A DNA stretch of 64,000 bases from Clostridiales bacterium (lineage in GTDB: Bacteria; Bacillota; Desulfotomaculia; Desulfotomaculales; VENG01): positions 1-64,000 of the forward strand of contig JAIPEW010000002.1 in the NCBI GenBank assembly GCA_021736985.1, given 5' to 3'. Within the stretch, counting starts at the first letter, position 1; every line of letters begins with the position of its first letter. Shown here piece after piece: positions 19,256 to 27,445 of this stretch. The notes under the pieces are model-generated. The model searched no databases, was not told where the DNA came from, and saw only the letters and a list, made by a program, of their open reading frames with translations. The translations under genes were made by a program, and so were the position numbers.

Positions 19256-19960
19256 TTAAATTAAGTTTAGTAAGTTGTTAGGTACTTTGGGCCCCCCGTA
19301 AACACGAACATTACCTTTTTGCATTTCTACCCGGTTAATTTCAAAGTATTCGACTACTTTAACACCAAGCACTTTCCGAGAAAACATATCCTGTAAAACT
19401 GAAACTTGTACCAGATCCAGGTTTACAGTTTGATTCTCTACAGCCAGGCCCGGTATTTTTTTTACCATGTACCTGTAAATACGCTCGGAACCTAAAATTT
19501 TATGCGACAATGTTACTAGAGGACATATGATAAGACAAAAGAGAGAACAGGGAATTATTTCTGGAAACTCAAGTACATCGACTTTAACTTTCTGGTCATT
19601 TCGTAATAATTTTACTTGTATATTTCCCAGTTTAACAACTACTTGCAAATCAAGCGGGCCCTTTTTTATATGCAGCCAGCATAATATATATCCTTCTTCT
19701 ATCTCAACTCTATCACATTCTATAGAGGGATTATTTTCTAAAAAACTAGTTAAAATAAAGATCAATGTTGCTTCAGAAATAGTAACCCGGCTAGCTAGAA
19801 AATCTGCTAAATCATTATCTCTTTTAAAATTCTCAAATAGTGCAGCCCCCCAGAAAATATTTTCCAGGTATTTTTTCCATTTAATATCTTTAAACTTTGT
19901 AGTTATTTTTTCAAATTTGTTTCCAATTGATAAATCACCTAAAAAACTTTTAATTCTCAT
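19256..19960 (-). CDS. unknown protein at the end of the end-resection cluster, 234 aa
   Basis: A 234-aa protein with RBS GGAGGG, starting 18 nt after the Rad50 C-terminal gene and so very likely co-transcribed. It has an amphipathic beta-rich pattern (IECDRVEIEEGYILCWLHIKKG, LDLQVVVKLGNIQVKLL) and one hydrophobic stretch at about residue 131-155 (IIPCSLFCLIICPLV). The alternating pattern slightly recalls lipid-binding LmeA/DUF2993 proteins, but I do not claim that. Its position is the main clue. Confidence 0.55.
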   Translation of the reverse strand: MRIKSFLGDLSIGNKFEKITTKFKDIKWKKYLENIFWGAALFENFKRDNDLADFLASRVTISEATLIFILTSFLENNPSIECDRVEIEEGYILCWLHIKKGPLDLQVVVKLGNIQVKLLRNDQKVKVDVLEFPEIIPCSLFCLIICPLVTLSHKILGSERIYRYMVKKIPGLAVENQTVNLDLVQVSVLQDMFSRKVLGVKVVEYFEINRVEMQKGNVRVYGGPKVPNNLLNLI

Positions 19961-19978
19961 AAACCCTCCGCAGCATTA

Positions 19979-20629
19979 CTAATCCAAATGAACGCTACTT
20001 TTACCATTCACCAGCTCAACGTGGTATACCTTGTCTGCAGTTTCAGCAAAATGCCTGTTATGAGTGACCATCAACACCTGCCTGCTAAAGGCTTCTGAAA
20101 GACTTTTTATAAAATGAGCAAGATTAGGCGCAAATTGATCAGAGACATGTTTCCCCGGCTCATCAAGCAGTAAAGGCCCCGGCAGAGGGGGGATGGAAGT
20201 TTCTAGAAGAGACATGCGTAGAGCCATAGATATAACATCCACCACTCCCCCTCCTCTTGCATCATCAGGTCTTGTTTTAACAGATTCTGCACCGTAAATT
20301 GATACTACATAAAACTCAGCTTCTGGATTGCCTCTTTTTTCAACCAGCTCAACTTCAAAAGAAATTTCAGGACCAAAAGTATACTGCAGCGCCTGGGTAA
20401 CCATATGCTGTATTTGCTGGCGTGCCTGTTCCCGGGCATAATTAGACGATTCCTGGAATAATATTTTTACCTGCTGAAGCATTTCTTTACGGCTATGTAC
20501 TTTTTCCCGCTGTTCTTGCGCTTCTTTCCTTTGCTGCTGTAGTTGATTAACTTCACCCCTGCGCCTATTATAATAAGATTCGAACTCTTCAACTGCAGCT
20601 TGTAGTTTATCAACTTTTTCGGTATACAT
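19979..20629 (-). CDS. Rad50/SbcC-like ATPase, C-terminal subunit
   Basis: A 216-aa protein: a basic coiled-coil N-terminal third (residues about 1-75), then the C-terminal ABC ATPase lobe. The signature segment is DDARGGGVVDVISMALR, a GGG-type variant of LSGGE seen in phage-like SbcC proteins, followed by Walker B LLLDEPGKHV and the switch histidine in MVTHNRHF. No Walker A is present; that is on the 20936-22540 product. It starts 2 nt after the middle gene with RBS GAGAGAGG. The three products should assemble into one Rad50-type machine. Confidence 0.85.
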   Translation of the reverse strand: MYTEKVDKLQAAVEEFESYYNRRRGEVNQLQQQRKEAQEQREKVHSRKEMLQQVKILFQESSNYAREQARQQIQHMVTQALQYTFGPEISFEVELVEKRGNPEAEFYVVSIYGAESVKTRPDDARGGGVVDVISMALRMSLLETSIPPLPGPLLLDEPGKHVSDQFAPNLAHFIKSLSEAFSRQVLMVTHNRHFAETADKVYHVELVNGKSSVHLD

Positions 20630-20631
20630 AA

Positions 20632-20955
20632 TTATTCCTCTCTCTCAGAAAGCGGAGCAGAAGATTTTATCAGATCCCAGGGAATCGTTTGTTCTATTTC
20701 ACTAATTAACGATTCAATTTCTTCTTGAAGTCTTTCAATATAATTATCTAATTCATCTGGTTCTACACCGTAAGACTTGATTTGTTGTATTAATTCTTTT
20801 TCCTGTTTAGATAATTCCTCCAGCCTGGTTTCTGCCTGTATACGCAAATTATTAGCCTTATCCAGTCCTTCTTTTAACTTTTGTAGCTTTGCCGTATAAT
20901 CCTCTTGAGGGGAAAGGTCTGCAGAAGAATCTTTTTTACTCAATTTTTTGTTCAC
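20632..20955 (-). CDS. Rad50/SbcC-like coiled-coil middle subunit
   Basis: A 107-aa protein that is almost wholly predicted coiled coil (KLQKLKEGLDKANNLRIQAETRLEEL and later ELDNYIERLQEEIESLI, in heptads). It starts at a GTG inside the end of the upstream gene, overlapping by 20 nt in another frame, and ends 2 nt before the next. By position it supplies part of the coil returning from the zinc hook. The RBS (AAGGGA) sits unusually close to the GTG, so translation may depend on coupling. It could instead reflect an ancient frameshift that was kept. Confidence 0.7.
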   Translation of the reverse strand: MNKKLSKKDSSADLSPQEDYTAKLQKLKEGLDKANNLRIQAETRLEELSKQEKELIQQIKSYGVEPDELDNYIERLQEEIESLISEIEQTIPWDLIKSSAPLSEREE

Positions 20956-22540
20956 TCCCTTCTGTCAATTGCTGTATAATTCTTTCTAAAGTATCCTGGT
21001 CTACTTCATTAAAACATGTAGGGCAACGTCCCAATTCTTTTAACACCATGCTGTACTGCAGAGCGGAGTGCTTAAGCTCTGCTTTCCTTTCTTCAAGATA
21101 ATTTTGCCCCTTTATTAATCTTAACCTGGTATCCGAAATGCGATTTGAGTACTCCTGCAAATGAGTTATTTTACCAGCCTTTTTTATAAGATCATTAATT
21201 TCCTGACTTCTGCCCGAAGATGGCATTACTTTGCATAAAAGATCTTTAATATTATTAATTTTTTGTTTTGTACTGTCTAAATGCCCTTTTAAAAAAATCA
21301 ATTCATTAAGCAAAGGTGCTTTCTTTTTTAAGATATTATACTTGTTATTACCATCTTGTACACGACTTGCGGAATCAAGCATATTACGGTAATAATTTAA
21401 ACTTTGTTTTCTATCATGCAGGCTTTCAGCAATTTTCTTTAAACTATACAGTTCTTCACAATAGTCTTTATTTTTTTGATACAGCTGTTTTGCCAGTATA
21501 GCTTTATTTAAATTTTCTTGTTTTTCTTTTAAAACTGCAGATGCATTATATATATAATTTAATTGTAAATATGTATTATAAAGGTTCTGATGGGTATGCA
21601 AATAATTTTCCAGCCTGCGTATAGACTCGAATTTTTGCCGTATATTGTAAGTTTTTTTAAAGGCATGGTCTACCTGTTTTAAGTCTTTTTGTATTAAATT
21701 AAGCTGCTGTTGAAGCTTTTGAATTGATTTTAACTTATCTACACTATTTTCCATGTATATAAAATTTTGATTGCATTTTTCCATGCCGTGTAAATTGTTA
21801 AAAATTCTTTCGGCATTTTCTTTATTAGTCTTAACCCGAGATAATTCTTTTTTTAATGAAACAAGTTCTGTTAACTTCTGCTTATATTTAGCCAACCGTC
21901 TCATTTCACGCTTGCATTTATCCATATCATTTTGCATAGAAGGTAAATCCTCATACTTTTCCAGGGACACATCGATTTTCTCCACCTGTTCTTCAAGCCG
22001 GTTGTCTTCTTTTTGCAGCGACAATATTTCCTGGTCCGCATCACGGGCAGCAGCATCAATAATATGTACTGAATGCAATCTCCCAATGGCCTTGGCTTTC
22101 AATGAACCCGGGCTAGATAATAAAAACGGCCCGGCAAGCTGGGGCGATATGTTTAATGAGACATGCAGATCTTCATCCAGCTTGACAGGAGATACGCCGT
22201 GTACAGCTTTTATTTCCGCAGGTACTCCCGTACCAAAACCTTCATAAATTTCTTTTTCTCCACCGGGGCCCCGCAATATATAACGATTTTTACCCGAAGT
22301 ACGCTCCCTGGTAATACTGGAACCGTCACTCATTATAACCGTTACTCTGGCCCCTGCGGAACCGGCCCTGATGAATCCGGTACCGCGCGGCTCATTTTCA
22401 AAAAGCCAGCGCAGGGCTCTTATAACAGCAGATTTGCCCTGATCTGATTCCCCTACCAGCACAGTCAAACCGGGAGAAAGTTCAAACTCGGTAAACTCAT
22501 GAGACTGAAAATTTTCAATTATAATCTTGGTTATAAACAA
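20936..22540 (-). CDS. Rad50/SbcC-like ATPase, N-terminal subunit with zinc hook
   Basis: A 534-aa protein. The N-terminal ATPase lobe has IIIENFQSHEFTEFEL and Walker A GESDQGKS (residues 30-37). A long coiled coil (about 170-490) follows, then a zinc-hook motif CPTC at residues 506-509, 25 residues before the end. The Walker B/signature lobe is encoded two genes downstream. Rad50 proteins are normally single chains of about 850-1000 aa; here the chain is broken just past the hook. It follows the Mre11-like gene by 14 nt. Confidence 0.88.
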   Translation of the reverse strand: MFITKIIIENFQSHEFTEFELSPGLTVLVGESDQGKSAVIRALRWLFENEPRGTGFIRAGSAGARVTVIMSDGSSITRERTSGKNRYILRGPGGEKEIYEGFGTGVPAEIKAVHGVSPVKLDEDLHVSLNISPQLAGPFLLSSPGSLKAKAIGRLHSVHIIDAAARDADQEILSLQKEDNRLEEQVEKIDVSLEKYEDLPSMQNDMDKCKREMRRLAKYKQKLTELVSLKKELSRVKTNKENAERIFNNLHGMEKCNQNFIYMENSVDKLKSIQKLQQQLNLIQKDLKQVDHAFKKTYNIRQKFESIRRLENYLHTHQNLYNTYLQLNYIYNASAVLKEKQENLNKAILAKQLYQKNKDYCEELYSLKKIAESLHDRKQSLNYYRNMLDSASRVQDGNNKYNILKKKAPLLNELIFLKGHLDSTKQKINNIKDLLCKVMPSSGRSQEINDLIKKAGKITHLQEYSNRISDTRLRLIKGQNYLEERKAELKHSALQYSMVLKELGRCPTCFNEVDQDTLERIIQQLTEGSEQKIE

Positions 22541-22554
22541 TATTATCGCTCCCG

Positions 22555-23538
22555 TTATTCAGTAAATTCTTCCTGTACCAGGGCCAGTTTCCTTAATGCT
22601 TCTTCCTTTATTTCTTTCTGCAACCCGTCCCTGCTGGCAATAATATTAATTATTTCTTCTAATCCAGTGATTTGATAATCCCCGCTCGACTGTATACCCT
22701 GCACGAACAAAGAAAACTTTTCCTTTTGAAATTCTAACTGCTCAATATGATCTCGGTTTAAGACCTGGCTTCCAGGAAGCGCTGATTCCAGTGGGATCTT
22801 TTTATATTGTGGAGGAGTTTTAGAAAAATCAATTATCACAATCGAGGGGATCCTCTTCATTTCTTCTTTTAATGCAGAAGTACGTACTAAAGCGCCGGGA
22901 TTAATAAAATATTTTTCTCCCCACTTAATATCCCGGAACCCCAGGTGAGCATGACCGGAGAGGGTAAAATCAGCTTCTGTTTTATCTGCAATACTTTCAA
23001 TCAAAGTATGTGCCACATCCGGATGAAACGGGCGTTCAAGGAGCATTCCATGCACTACATGTACTGCAGCATCACAACTTAAAGATGATACCGCATAGTC
23101 TAATTCCGGGTTTCTTTTATCTATATCGTAATGAAAGTGCTGTCCTGTCAATTGTATTACTATATTGCCGCTCCTTAAATAACAGGGAACGCCTGGATCT
23201 AAAAGATGAAAACACCCTAATTCTACAGCCAGACCCAGCATAGTTCTATGTATAGTTGCAGGATTTTGTCCAAAGAGGTCATGGTTTCCTGCAATTATGT
23301 ATACAGGAGCGGGCATTTTACTAAAAATGCTTAAAAACTGCCTGGAAACAGCTAAAGACGGGCCCGGGCTGTCAAAAAGATCTCCACCGTGAATAATAGC
23401 ATCAACACCGTGCTCTTCAGCCAGGCCGGCTACTTCCTTTAATTTATTAGCTACTGTTTCCGGGAAATTATCTGTACGCCCCCGGGGAGTATTGCCCCTT
23501 ATATGGGTATCCGTTAAGAACAACAATTTCAATGTCAT
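22555..23538 (-). CDS. Mre11/SbcD-like DNA nuclease
   Basis: This 327-aa calcineurin-like phosphoesterase has every metal-binding motif of the Mre11/SbcD family: FLTDTHIRG, IHGGDLFDS, AGNHDLFG, VHGML and LSGHAHLG. These bind two Mn ions for 3'-5' exonuclease and endonuclease activity at DNA ends. The C-terminal ~90 aa would be the Rad50-binding cap region. It is immediately upstream of the Rad50-like genes, the usual pairing, and downstream of herA after a 416-nt gap occupied by a repeat. Confidence 0.92.
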   Translation of the reverse strand: MTLKLLFLTDTHIRGNTPRGRTDNFPETVANKLKEVAGLAEEHGVDAIIHGGDLFDSPGPSLAVSRQFLSIFSKMPAPVYIIAGNHDLFGQNPATIHRTMLGLAVELGCFHLLDPGVPCYLRSGNIVIQLTGQHFHYDIDKRNPELDYAVSSLSCDAAVHVVHGMLLERPFHPDVAHTLIESIADKTEADFTLSGHAHLGFRDIKWGEKYFINPGALVRTSALKEEMKRIPSIVIIDFSKTPPQYKKIPLESALPGSQVLNRDHIEQLEFQKEKFSLFVQGIQSSGDYQITGLEEIINIIASRDGLQKEIKEEALRKLALVQEEFTE

Positions 23539-23629
23539 TCACTTCCTTTTTTTAATTAACTCCTCGTGCCAGCCAGGCACAACCAATAATGAAAATATAG
23601 CTTCGCTATTATCGTATTAACATGGTAAA

Positions 23630-23804
23630 GGCCGGTGGTACTTGGAGCGAACGTATGGAGGCGCATTCAAAGAGCGATTAAGGCCGAAGAAAAGCGCCGG
23701 TGCATGTCTGAGCTACCGAGGGGAGCGAGTTCTCCAGCGCCCGAGGCCGATTGAGCTCAGACAATTTTATGTGCCAAAGTAGGGAGCGGAGAGTTCCACC
23801 GGCC
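23630..23804 (-). repeat. MITE-like dispersed repeat, copy B
   Basis: A 175-bp block, inverse orientation to the copy at 14400-14573 and similar along its whole length by eye (roughly 80-85%). Terminal repeats GGCCGGTGGTAC and TTCCACCGGCC are kept, and the shared outer flank GGCAAAAAC lies next to one end of both copies. It sits in the gap between herA and the Mre11-like gene (23539-23954), in which I see no gene. Confidence 0.75.
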
Positions 23805-23870
23805 TGGCAAAAACAAAGTTTTCTAATCAACCTCTCATACCAGCTTTAACTATTTTTGTGTTAAACCCTC

Positions 23871-23920
23871 ACGAGCTTTTTGTTCACAACGGAGTATGAA
23901 AACTCTTCTGACAGCTGGGT
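23871..23920 (-). repeat. dispersed end motif, copy next to MITE-like block B
   Basis: On the minus strand this reads TCTTCTG..GTTTTCATACTCCGTTGTGA then AAAAAGCTCGTGAGG (positions given, split here). It matches copies at 25852, 46003 and 53547, with a small GAGC/GCTC hairpin at its end. Confidence 0.65.
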
Positions 23921-23954
23921 GGAAGGCAGTGGTTTCCTAGAAGATCCCAATGGT

Positions 23955-25808
23955 TTAAGAACTACGATGAAAGGTTGTACCAAAAGGATTCTTTTCAGCA
24001 TAGACTTTTCCATCTTCTTCAAGTTTATTCATCTGTTCAATCAGCTGGTCATGATCAATTAGTTTTCCCAATTCATCCGAGATAGTACCTAGCACCAAGT
24101 GCAGAGCATTAGTACTGAATGGAAGTTTATCCTTTATTATATTCCAGAACTGGTTTTCCTGCTGAAAATACACCTGTTCCAGTTCTTCAAAAGGATTTTG
24201 AGTATGCGGGCTTTGAGTACATGCACAGCGAATTTTTATAGGAATTGTTCTTCCAGTAATGGCAGATGACAAAAAAGCATTGCCGGAATTAAGATAAGGT
24301 AAACGCCTGGCCTCTTCAGAACCAATATCCGTTTCTTCTTTTATAACATTTATATCTGTGACCCGTACAGTTCTAAAAATAATTTTGGTATTTAACTGCG
24401 CAGTCACAGTATCATCTAAAAGAGCAGGACGTTGGGTTGCCATACACAAAATCACTCCGTATTTACGCCCTTCCTGCGATATTCCTCGGATAACCCTTTT
24501 ACTATACGAATCACGTTCGCCTTTCATAGAAAAGTTGTGTGCCTCGTCTGTTACAAAAACAAAAGGTGGAAACCATTTTGCAGGCTCTCCTTTTTGCCGC
24601 GCATCCTGGTAGTCCCTGCGATTCCGGTAAAGCCGATCCAAGAGATAAGCCCCGTAAACCTGCAGCAATTTTACCGGGCCGCGCACTACAGATAACCTTC
24701 CATCCATCACCGCACCTTCTACAGGAGAGGTCCCTGCAGTAAAAACACCTTCTCTTTCCAGTGCATTTAACCGCCAGGCAATACCTTTTAGGGAAGACAG
24801 GTGCCCTACCCTATCCTTGTATTTAGCAGCTAATTTGCTAAGATAATCTATTTTCTCTTTTTCACGCGGGTTATCTATCGCTGCAGAATCCTGGTTTAGT
24901 ATGGATTCATTCTCCATGACTGTAATCAGTCCATACAGCTTGGAAGAAAAAGAAGTGTACGAATCTTTATTTTCATGCAGAGTAAACACGGCATTTGACA
25001 TAGGTTCACTTAGAGACTCACCGGATCCTAAAAGGCTTACTAATTCTGCGGCCTTGAGATCTGTAAAGTCTACACCTACATCTACTCCAACTACAAATAA
25101 TTTATATTCTCCGCTAAAATCCCGGGCCCGTTCCTGCGGTAAACCTTTAAAGGATGTAGAAAAATCCATCTCCCAGTGCGGGTCAAGCACTACAACAGGC
25201 ACCCTTTTTTTCATAAATTCTTCCAAAAAAACACGTAACCCGAAAGACTTTCCGGAACCAGAACCTCCGAAAATACCAATGTGTGGATACTCGTTCATTG
25301 ACTTATAATCAAAAATAAAAGGTACACCGTCCTGGGGCATAATACCGGCGTTTTGCTCATAAATACACATTGTATCGCTTAATTCACCGGGCAGATCATC
25401 AAGCAGATTACCTGTACCGCGTATAGTTCCCAGCGTAAGAGCATAATCCGGGTAATTACTAACCAGTAAATCTTCTACTTCTTGAAAATCAGGTAACCGC
25501 ACCTGTTTTCCTACTCCAATAGGTGTTGATATTTCTCCTATGATACGGAGCTTGGCAATATTAATTTCTTCTTCATCAACACTATAGCCGACAGCCTTAA
25601 GCCCCGCCAGTACCTGTTCATCTATAAGCCCGTTAGTTTCCGTAGCCAGTGGAATATACCTGTTAAAACTATAAGTTTCTATTACTTCTCCCCGGGGACT
25701 GTTTCTGAGTTGATCTTCTACAAGCAATATTTCATTAATAATAAATTTTCTTTCCCGGGAAGCTACCCACACCTCCTGCTGAGTAGTAGCTCCTACTACC
25801 TGCACCAA
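23955..25808 (-). CDS. herA: HerA-type DNA translocase/helicase
   Basis: About 617 aa. I start it at the TTG/GTG pair (25808/25805) that follows GAGGTG; the longest open frame extends 43 codons further but runs through a repeat. The N-terminal HAS-barrel-like region (about 1-140) precedes an FtsK/HerA ATPase core with Walker A GGSGSGKSFG, PVVVLDPHWE, Walker B VFVTDEAHNF, sensor CMATQRP and an arginine-finger-like IIFRTVR. HerA hexamers pair with NurA to resect DNA ends; nurA is the gene directly upstream. The last few residues (GTTFHRSS) may come from the adjoining repeat. Confidence 0.9.
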   Translation of the reverse strand: MVQVVGATTQQEVWVASRERKFIINEILLVEDQLRNSPRGEVIETYSFNRYIPLATETNGLIDEQVLAGLKAVGYSVDEEEINIAKLRIIGEISTPIGVGKQVRLPDFQEVEDLLVSNYPDYALTLGTIRGTGNLLDDLPGELSDTMCIYEQNAGIMPQDGVPFIFDYKSMNEYPHIGIFGGSGSGKSFGLRVFLEEFMKKRVPVVVLDPHWEMDFSTSFKGLPQERARDFSGEYKLFVVGVDVGVDFTDLKAAELVSLLGSGESLSEPMSNAVFTLHENKDSYTSFSSKLYGLITVMENESILNQDSAAIDNPREKEKIDYLSKLAAKYKDRVGHLSSLKGIAWRLNALEREGVFTAGTSPVEGAVMDGRLSVVRGPVKLLQVYGAYLLDRLYRNRRDYQDARQKGEPAKWFPPFVFVTDEAHNFSMKGERDSYSKRVIRGISQEGRKYGVILCMATQRPALLDDTVTAQLNTKIIFRTVRVTDINVIKEETDIGSEEARRLPYLNSGNAFLSSAITGRTIPIKIRCACTQSPHTQNPFEELEQVYFQQENQFWNIIKDKLPFSTNALHLVLGTISDELGKLIDHDQLIEQMNKLEEDGKVYAEKNPFGTTFHRSS

Positions 25809-25851
25809 GCTCACCTCGCAGATAAATTTAAATTTAACGTTAATAAGCATC

Positions 25852-25955
25852 TGCTCACAACAAAGTACGAAAAATCTTCTGACAGCTAGGTGGAGAGCCG
25901 GAGCAAAGGGCAGAAGTGAGGGTCCGCTACCTTGCATAATCCACCGGCCCTTTTA
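25852..25955 (-). repeat. dispersed repeat D between nurA and herA
   Basis: A non-coding block of about 105 bp. Read on the minus strand it contains GGGCCGGTGGATTATGCAAG, GGTAGCGGACC, a CACTTCTGCCCTTT segment, and ends with TTTTTCGTACTTTGTTGTGA. The same elements in the same order recur at about 45797-46040. Confidence 0.6.
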
Positions 25956-26009
25956 ATTTGCAGATTGTTATCTACGTTCAGGATTACAGCCTTTTAATGA
26001 GTTTTCGTA

Positions 26010-26996
26010 TTAATAATCCCGCCTGTTGCGGTGTGAAATAAAGAACTTTTCCTTAATTCCAGTATCTAGATAAGCCGACAGCAATAATTCCATTTCACGC
26101 CTGGTTATTCTCACTTCAGAATCAACTATGTCCAGGATTAAAGGGATACCACGGGAACCGGACGGAGTAATTGTATACAGAAAGCACATAACATTAAAAA
26201 TAGTTTCCATATTAACTCCCGGCAAAAAATCGTAAGCCGTAGCCTGTGGATACCGGGAAAGGCGGGCAAATACTGTATAAAACTCTGACTTAATTTGTTT
26301 TTCACCGGGTAGCATAAGGCATTCCCCGGTTTCCATCCGCCCGAAAAGCATTTCTCGATCATATATAGTATTATTTTCACTGCGGCTTTCATTCAAAACA
26401 CGGTAAAGTCCATAAGATTCTGCTTCTTCGATTATACCTGCGGAAATTACCCCTTTCGACTCAGCTAAACGCAGGTATTCGTTCCATTCCTGCGAAGCAT
26501 GCCTGGAAAAACGCATAAACCCGCCATCAAAAAGTACTAGCCACGGGCTGTACTTTTTCACTGCATTAGCAGCTGCCTGCAATTCCATTGATGTTAAAAT
26601 ATGGTTTTTTACCCGCTCCAATGCCTGTACACCTGCCAAATTTTCTTCACGGGAAAGTTTTTCTAGACGTTTATAATGCTCAGGTAAAAGCGGCGAAAAA
26701 ATATCGGAGACTATTTCGCCGTCCCCTGCAGAAGACTTTGCATAAGCCTGAAACAAATAAAGTATATACGGCTGAAAAGAACCCGCCATATTAAAAGAAC
26801 CATCTACTGCTACTACAGGCCTTTTTCCACTTAATTCTTCTATTTTCCCCGGGCTTATAATTTTTAACGGTGTTATATTAGCTATTAACTGCTCCAATTC
26901 ATACCTGAGGTCTGACGGCATATTATTTATTGTCCGCTCGTGCAAACTTTTATTAACACCCTTTATTAACCCGGAAAGGTTTTCATCGGAAAGCAC
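26010..26996 (-). CDS. nurA: NurA-domain nuclease
   Basis: A 328-aa protein of the NurA family, a 5'-3' exonuclease/endonuclease that works with HerA. The first catalytic region reads RPVVAVDGSFN (about residue 60), followed by WLVLFDGGFMRF (about 180) and a C-terminal VDSEVRITRREMELLLSAYL helix region; the family needs such acidic residues for Mn binding. It lies upstream of herA and 26 nt after the DUF1232 gene. The fold assignment rests on these motifs and on the herA neighbour. Confidence 0.82.
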   Translation of the reverse strand: MLSDENLSGLIKGVNKSLHERTINNMPSDLRYELEQLIANITPLKIISPGKIEELSGKRPVVAVDGSFNMAGSFQPYILYLFQAYAKSSAGDGEIVSDIFSPLLPEHYKRLEKLSREENLAGVQALERVKNHILTSMELQAAANAVKKYSPWLVLFDGGFMRFSRHASQEWNEYLRLAESKGVISAGIIEEAESYGLYRVLNESRSENNTIYDREMLFGRMETGECLMLPGEKQIKSEFYTVFARLSRYPQATAYDFLPGVNMETIFNVMCFLYTITPSGSRGIPLILDIVDSEVRITRREMELLLSAYLDTGIKEKFFISHRNRRDY

Positions 26997-27022: not shown

Positions 27023-27445
27023 CTAAAATCTTTTATTTACCCGCTGGTAAGCTTTTTTAGGTAGAATCTGGGCCGCTACTTTTAATATAGAATCAACAAT
27101 CGACAATAAACTATCCGGACCATCCCAGTATTCCAACACTATTTCTTCTCCTGCTGCATCAAATAATCCTTTTAAAACTAGGGCAACTGCAAGCAAGTCA
27201 TCTACCTGGCCTACAAGCGGTACAAAATCAGGAACTATATCAATAGGGGACAAGATATATGCTGCAACAGCTCCCAGGAGAACTTTATTTTGACTGGGAA
27301 CGCGGGAATCTTTCATGAGCCGGTAAATTAATTTTAAAAAATTGGGCAACAACATAATTAATTCCTTGGCCAGTTTTTCCTGGTTACTTACAAATTTGTC
27401 ACTTTTTGAATCATAATAATAAGTTTTCACACTTATCCCTCCCAT
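27023..27445 (-). CDS. YkvA/DUF1232 family membrane-associated protein
   Basis: A 140-aa protein with the DUF1232 core GAVAAYILSPIDIVPDFVPLVGQVDDLLAVALVL (about residues 60-95; only the SPIDIVPD part is diagnostic). That core is hydrophobic and probably associates with the membrane. The family has no settled function. It is the first gene of the nurA-herA group, but a functional link is only inferred from spacing. Confidence 0.8.
   Translation of the reverse strand: MGGISVKTYYYDSKSDKFVSNQEKLAKELIMLLPNFLKLIYRLMKDSRVPSQNKVLLGAVAAYILSPIDIVPDFVPLVGQVDDLLAVALVLKGLFDAAGEEIVLEYWDGPDSLLSIVDSILKVAAQILPKKAYQRVNKRF

Follow-up and report, generated by a model that had tools for sequence, protein, structure and literature searches.

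A Rad50 divided over three genes in a putative NurA-HerA-Mre11 DNA-end-resection system of Bacillota

We found an operon for NurA, HerA, Mre11 and a Rad50 divided over three genes (radN, CC and radC) in the genome of a bacterium of the class Desulfotomaculia (assembly GCA_021736985.1). Judged from its sequence and from those of its relatives, it probably represents a chromosomal DNA-end-resection machine of Bacillota that mostly replaces AddAB and SbcCD. In the literature searched we found no description of a Rad50 or SbcC split in such a way, and the architecture appears to be undescribed there so far. The window, which is the whole stretch of DNA that was analysed, comprises the first 64,000 nucleotides of one contig (JAIPEW010000002.1) of a genome of 2.84 Mb in 65 contigs, with a completeness of 100%.

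The operon and its conserved parts

The original prediction had placed NurA, HerA, Mre11 and Rad50 next to each other on one strand. Family scans (Pfam NurA, DUF87, Metallophos and Rad50-type halves) confirmed this four-protein cluster, but showed that Rad50 consists of three genes, which had been overlooked. All the genes lie on the minus strand. nurA (26010-26996) encodes a nuclease of 328 aa (Pfam NurA, 76 bits against a cut-off of 21, 3e-21), herA (23955-25808) a hexameric-type translocase of about 616-617 aa (DUF87, 2e-15), and the third gene (22555-23538) a calcineurin-type Mre11/SbcD-like nuclease of 327 aa (Metallophos, 1.7e-13). These are followed by radN (20936-22540, 534 aa; phrog_16465, 1e-66), CC (20632-20943, about 103 aa; phrog_18563, 1e-9), with its start at TTG 20943 or GTG 20955, and radC (19979-20629, 216 aa; phrog_15167, 3e-64). 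RadN, CC and RadC each have a separate PHROGs family. The order NurA-HerA-Mre11-RadN-CC-RadC was identical in all 12 intact loci of the class, so the operon is more than a chance arrangement and the predicted linkage in relatives was borne out.

The herA reading frame opens to 25937, but the start is probably TTG 25808 or GTG 25805, because the homologous region sets in only at residue 45 and the additional N-terminal part falls on a 43-nt repeat. Two copies of this 43-nt element, 86% identical, flank herA (23881-23923 and 25852-25894); the one upstream overlaps the wrongly extended reading frame, and the other comes after herA. No LexA/SOS box was found in the operon (the window held 6 matches with ≤2 mismatches, fewer than chance), and the Rfam search gave no match within the operon.

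The catalytic motifs, as had been claimed, were kept. Mre11 residues D10, H12, D53, N85, H86, H163, H196 and H198 were invariant, with the full metal-ligand set kept across 75 loci. The HerA Walker A (residues 224-231) and D464/E465 were invariant among relatives, as were NurA residues D65, E138, D157 and D213 across 29 loci. Among solved structures, the best match of HerA was archaeal HerA (4d2i, 3e-14) and those of Mre11 were Thermotoga and Pyrococcus Mre11; NurA had no sequence match among the solved structures searched and matched no curated NurA model of NCBIfam. FtsK proteins of clostridial loci, which the profile labelled HerA, were discarded as HerA.

The description of the cluster as archaeal-style held for its composition: as in the nurA-herA-mre11-rad50 cluster of Sulfolobus and Pyrococcus, the same four kinds of protein are encoded in one operon with their catalytic motifs kept. 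However, HerA, Mre11 and RadN fell far below the cut-offs of the curated archaeal models (HerA, 62 bits against 970; Mre11_Halo, 30 against 550; Rad50, 46 against 700), and unlike its archaeal counterpart, the Rad50 of the window is spread over three genes and has an arm of 47-residue repeats. Mre11 also stayed below the cut-off of the SbcD model (39 bits against 77.65).

The two flanking genes, proposed earlier as head and tail of the cluster, were rejected as members. Neither the DUF1232 gene (27023-27445, minus strand; Pfam DUF1232) nor the 234-aa gene (19256-19960, minus strand; no family) had a relative in any of 154 related loci, and the best relative of the latter (40%) was in a sister genome without the cluster. 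Both are bystanders, and the other neighbours of the operon in the window are metabolic genes.

Distribution, AddAB and alternative roles

The protein search showed NurA of the window kind in 15 of 113 genomes of the class, and across the phylum 73 of the 398 genomes sampled had a NurA above the cut-off. The cluster, which had been thought notable for a Firmicute, is real, but NurA itself is not rare there. RadN, counted at E below 1e-40, was present in 62 of the 398 genomes, of which 53 had both proteins and 9 had RadN only; 20 had NurA only and 316 had neither (odds ratio 93, p about 1e-39 by Fisher's test with related genomes treated as independent). Where the split Rad50 had no adjacent NurA, 24 of 26 genomes carried NurA elsewhere.

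Two kinds of NurA-HerA were present in Bacillota, separated with 100% branch support in both the HerA and the NurA tree. Type A has the same components as the window kind (type B) and is also often found without canonical AddB. It differs in its single-chain Rad50, which is about 855 aa long and has the CPxC hook at its centre, and in one extra gene (about 195 aa), and its other products are NurA of about 395 aa, HerA of about 535 aa and a normal SbcD-like Mre11 of about 415 aa (125 bits against the cut-off of 77.65). In six type A loci this extra gene, which is conserved and measures about 190-220 aa, lay between NurA and HerA. A subset of type B has NurA-HerA alone, with the split Rad50 elsewhere in the genome. 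Ten loci had NurA-HerA of the window kind without adjoining Mre11-Rad50, and most of these had neighbours in common, among them a gene of about 650 aa. In the RadC tree, the NurA-linked loci clustered together.

Canonical AddB was found in 3 of 53 genomes with both RadN and NurA, compared with 241 of 345 others (Fisher's test, related genomes treated as independent). Within the class it was present in 0 of 15 NurA-positive and 86 of 98 NurA-negative genomes. A lenient threshold gave an AddB-like match in 24 of the 73 NurA-positive genomes, and both systems occurred together in Carboxydothermus-type genomes and in Tumebacillus. No helicase-nuclease of AddAB size was seen in 12 of the 15 NurA-positive genomes of the class, and one of these 12 is a genome in a single contig with a completeness of 100%. 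The remaining three, the genome of the window among them, had an AdnAB-like helicase-nuclease pair. The searches for other end-processing enzymes that had been proposed for the window's genome found neither canonical AddB nor canonical SbcC. They did find a divergent AdnAB-like pair (L205:3207-9369), whose two proteins of 1077 and 989 aa have UvrD and PD-(D/E)XK domains. The statement that this genome lacks AddAB was therefore withdrawn, and any replacement of AddAB is incomplete there since the pair is retained. A sister genome contained SbcC and AddB and neither NurA nor RadC. Taken as a whole, the gene content of the genomes points to a housekeeping role for the module.

Two other roles were weighed against resection. 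The module could regulate or restrain recombination together with HerA-NurA and not be the main resection enzyme, as has been argued for haloarchaeal Mre11-Rad50. We consider this unlikely, although the AdnAB-like pair of the window's genome would fit it, as would the doubts over resection by archaeal HerA-NurA: the Thermococcus kodakarensis enzymes cut both strands, and the authors doubted a role in resection (PMC12977600). The scarcity of other AddAB-size enzymes in the NurA-positive genomes of the class, and the rarity of canonical AddB alongside the module across the phylum, speak for resection instead.

A role in defence against phages or plasmids, with HerA-NurA degrading invading DNA and the SMC-like ATPase acting as sensor, in the manner of HerA-Sir2 and HerA-DUF4297, appeared slightly less probable again. 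HerA-nuclease defence systems do exist (PMC12977600), PADLOC HerA models matched weakly (70 bits), and RadN and RadC weakly resembled the ATPase lobes of GajA/LmuB. However, anti-phage HerA models gave 41-50 bits against cut-offs of 800-850, NurA had no PADLOC match, and the partner of HerA is NurA and not Sir2 or DUF4297. Many genera carry the module with its order kept, and the clustering of NurA-linked RadC, the co-occurrence with NurA even when unlinked and the rarity of canonical AddB all weigh against defence. So do the metabolic neighbours in the window, from which the original prediction had already judged defence to be unfavoured.

The split Rad50, its arm and its zinc hook

RadN and RadC carry the two Rad50-type ATPase lobes, with the Walker A and Q-loop in RadN and the signature (RGGG), Walker B (LLLDEP) and H-loop, after a short coil, in RadC. 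The Walker A of RadN (GESDQGKS) is encoded at 22430-22453 on the minus strand, and G29, G34 and K35 were invariant in 53 members of the RadN alignment. RadC matched the C-lobe of Pyrococcus Rad50 (9e-11), and Foldseek matched the RadN head to Rad50/SMC N-lobes. The calcineurin nuclease and the ABC/SMC-like ATPase with a zinc hook are shared with SbcCD and Mre11-Rad50. In contrast, the SbcCD layout of both ATPase lobes on one polypeptide, with an antiparallel coil and an apical hook, was not found; the window kind has its lobes on separate polypeptides, an extra CC subunit between them and a modular arm.

The split was the same well beyond the window. None of the 12 intact class loci had fused Rad50 reading frames. 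With RadC as the query, a public scan covering 84,980 species genomes found 247 relatives, and among the best 80 of these 247, nearly all titled Bacillota, RadN was present in 66. All 66 had the lobes on separate genes and CC present; CC lay between the lobes in 65 and overlapped RadC in the 66th, and Mre11 was upstream in 65. On viral contigs, RadN and RadC were both present as separate reading frames in 53 of 55 cases, with CC between them in 48 of the 53 and Mre11 usually downstream. Plasmids carry the same parts, with Mre11 fused to RadN in some. The reading-frame offset between neighbouring pieces took all three possible values among loci, which excludes a frameshift product and makes the pieces separate genes. 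Although the radN and CC genes of the window share a few bases, a single gene that fell apart through error or decay, or whose pieces are linked by programmed frameshifting, has next to no probability and was ruled out: over 100 independent loci show the identical break, the frames differ, foreign genes lie between the pieces in a phage, and the motifs are intact.

Three compact, unsplit relatives with almost no arm were found in the same class. One was an Mre11+RadN+RadC fusion of 700 aa directly upstream of addB (L210:9652-11754), another a RadN-RadC protein of 406 aa adjoining Mre11 (L212:5977-7197) and the third a version of 524 aa, likewise immediately upstream of addB (L215:9867-11441). 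By the natural fusion argument, such joining of both lobes supports RadN and RadC forming one ATPase head. Lone RadC genes were seen at 11 loci of a clostridial clade, with three more loci alongside, and one of them (L062) had folD on one side and the RNase Y gene on the other. This clade showed no RadN or CC within the flanks examined and no NurA in the three genomes tested.

The arms of Rad50 and SMC proteins are viewed as a single chain folded back on itself. The arm of RadN (21041-22018, minus strand) is built of 47-residue helical repeats and ends in a zinc hook of the CxxC type, which here lies at the C-end of the protein. The hook codons (CPTC, 21014-21025, minus strand) place it at residue 506. 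The CPxC was terminal in all 105 RadN compared, and the chain ended within some tens of residues past the motif. Autocorrelation of the arm gave a top peak at lag 47 in 72 of 108 sequences and at lag 94 in 18. Over 54 non-redundant sequences the mean z was 2.9, whereas six controls with an unsplit Rad50 gave -0.2 to -1.2. Hook positions clustered near 412, 459 and 506, a step of about 47 residues, and their circular concentration was best at a period of 47 (R 0.875, n 54); one long member had its hook at 694 in its own stop-to-stop numbering. AlphaFold2 placed helix breaks of RadN near 250, 297, 344 and 438, in a model whose pTM of 0.37 is too low to define the packing of the arm.

CC was predicted by AlphaFold2 as a hairpin (pLDDT 87) of helices 12-57 (46 residues) and 62-86 (25 residues), with an invariant proline in its GVxPE turn. 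The arm has about 240-520 aa, compared with the short coil of RadC plus CC. Because neither RadC nor CC becomes longer as the arm does, the pieces cannot form an antiparallel coil over its full length. The modules would run in line, since one added module in an up-down bundle would shift the hook to the opposite end.

Proposed mechanism and its meaning

The original prediction had the module acting on DNA ends, and the findings, at the level of sequence, support this. We propose that Mre11 and the ATP-driven Rad50 clamp would recognise and open a broken DNA end. The HerA ring would then pump the duplex into NurA, which would degrade the 5' strand and leave a 3' tail for RecA. Within the clamp, RadN would supply the N-terminal ATPase half and the rod of 47-residue modules, followed by the zinc hook as the last element of the chain, RadC would supply the C-terminal ATPase half on its short coil, and CC, as a separate helical hairpin, would most likely fasten the return strand and the arm together. 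In most carrier genomes the machine would stand in for AddAB and SbcCD. More tentatively, Rad50 may have evolved here into a three-subunit clamp, with separate half-ATPases, a ruler-like rod of 47-residue modules bearing the hook, and CC closing the clamp. Together with NurA-HerA it may form a widespread AddAB-replacing resection system in many Bacillota, whose Mre11-Rad50 part also occurs on phages and plasmids.

The split also bears on a known phage protein. In the Mre11/Rad50 fusion of Bacillus phage 0305phi8-36 (A7KV18), one P-loop segment was not observed (PMC3175470). Among viral proteins, this fusion was the best match to RadN by fold, and it belongs to the same RadN family. One viral contig of 218,948 bases had a 769-aa Mre11-RadN fusion, of the same length as the 0305phi8-36 fusion, with a separate CC and with RadC downstream. 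A separate RadC offers an explanation for the apparently missing half ATPase of the 0305phi8-36 protein (PMC3175470).

With a Rad50 cut at the hook, an arm that grows stepwise and a small extra subunit, the roles of the coil, the hook and the linkage of the lobes could be tested by mixing purified parts. Deinococcus NurA-HerA, like that of the window kind, is bacterial and occurs in genomes lacking RecBCD/AddAB (PMC9960219), and a split Rad50 is not described there; D. radiodurans is without Mre11-Rad50 (PMC12977600). Bacterial NurA-HerA has been regarded as confined to a small number of bacteria, Deinococcus-Thermus for example (PMC9960219). In contrast, the distribution found here suggests that much of Bacillota may resect DNA ends without AddAB.
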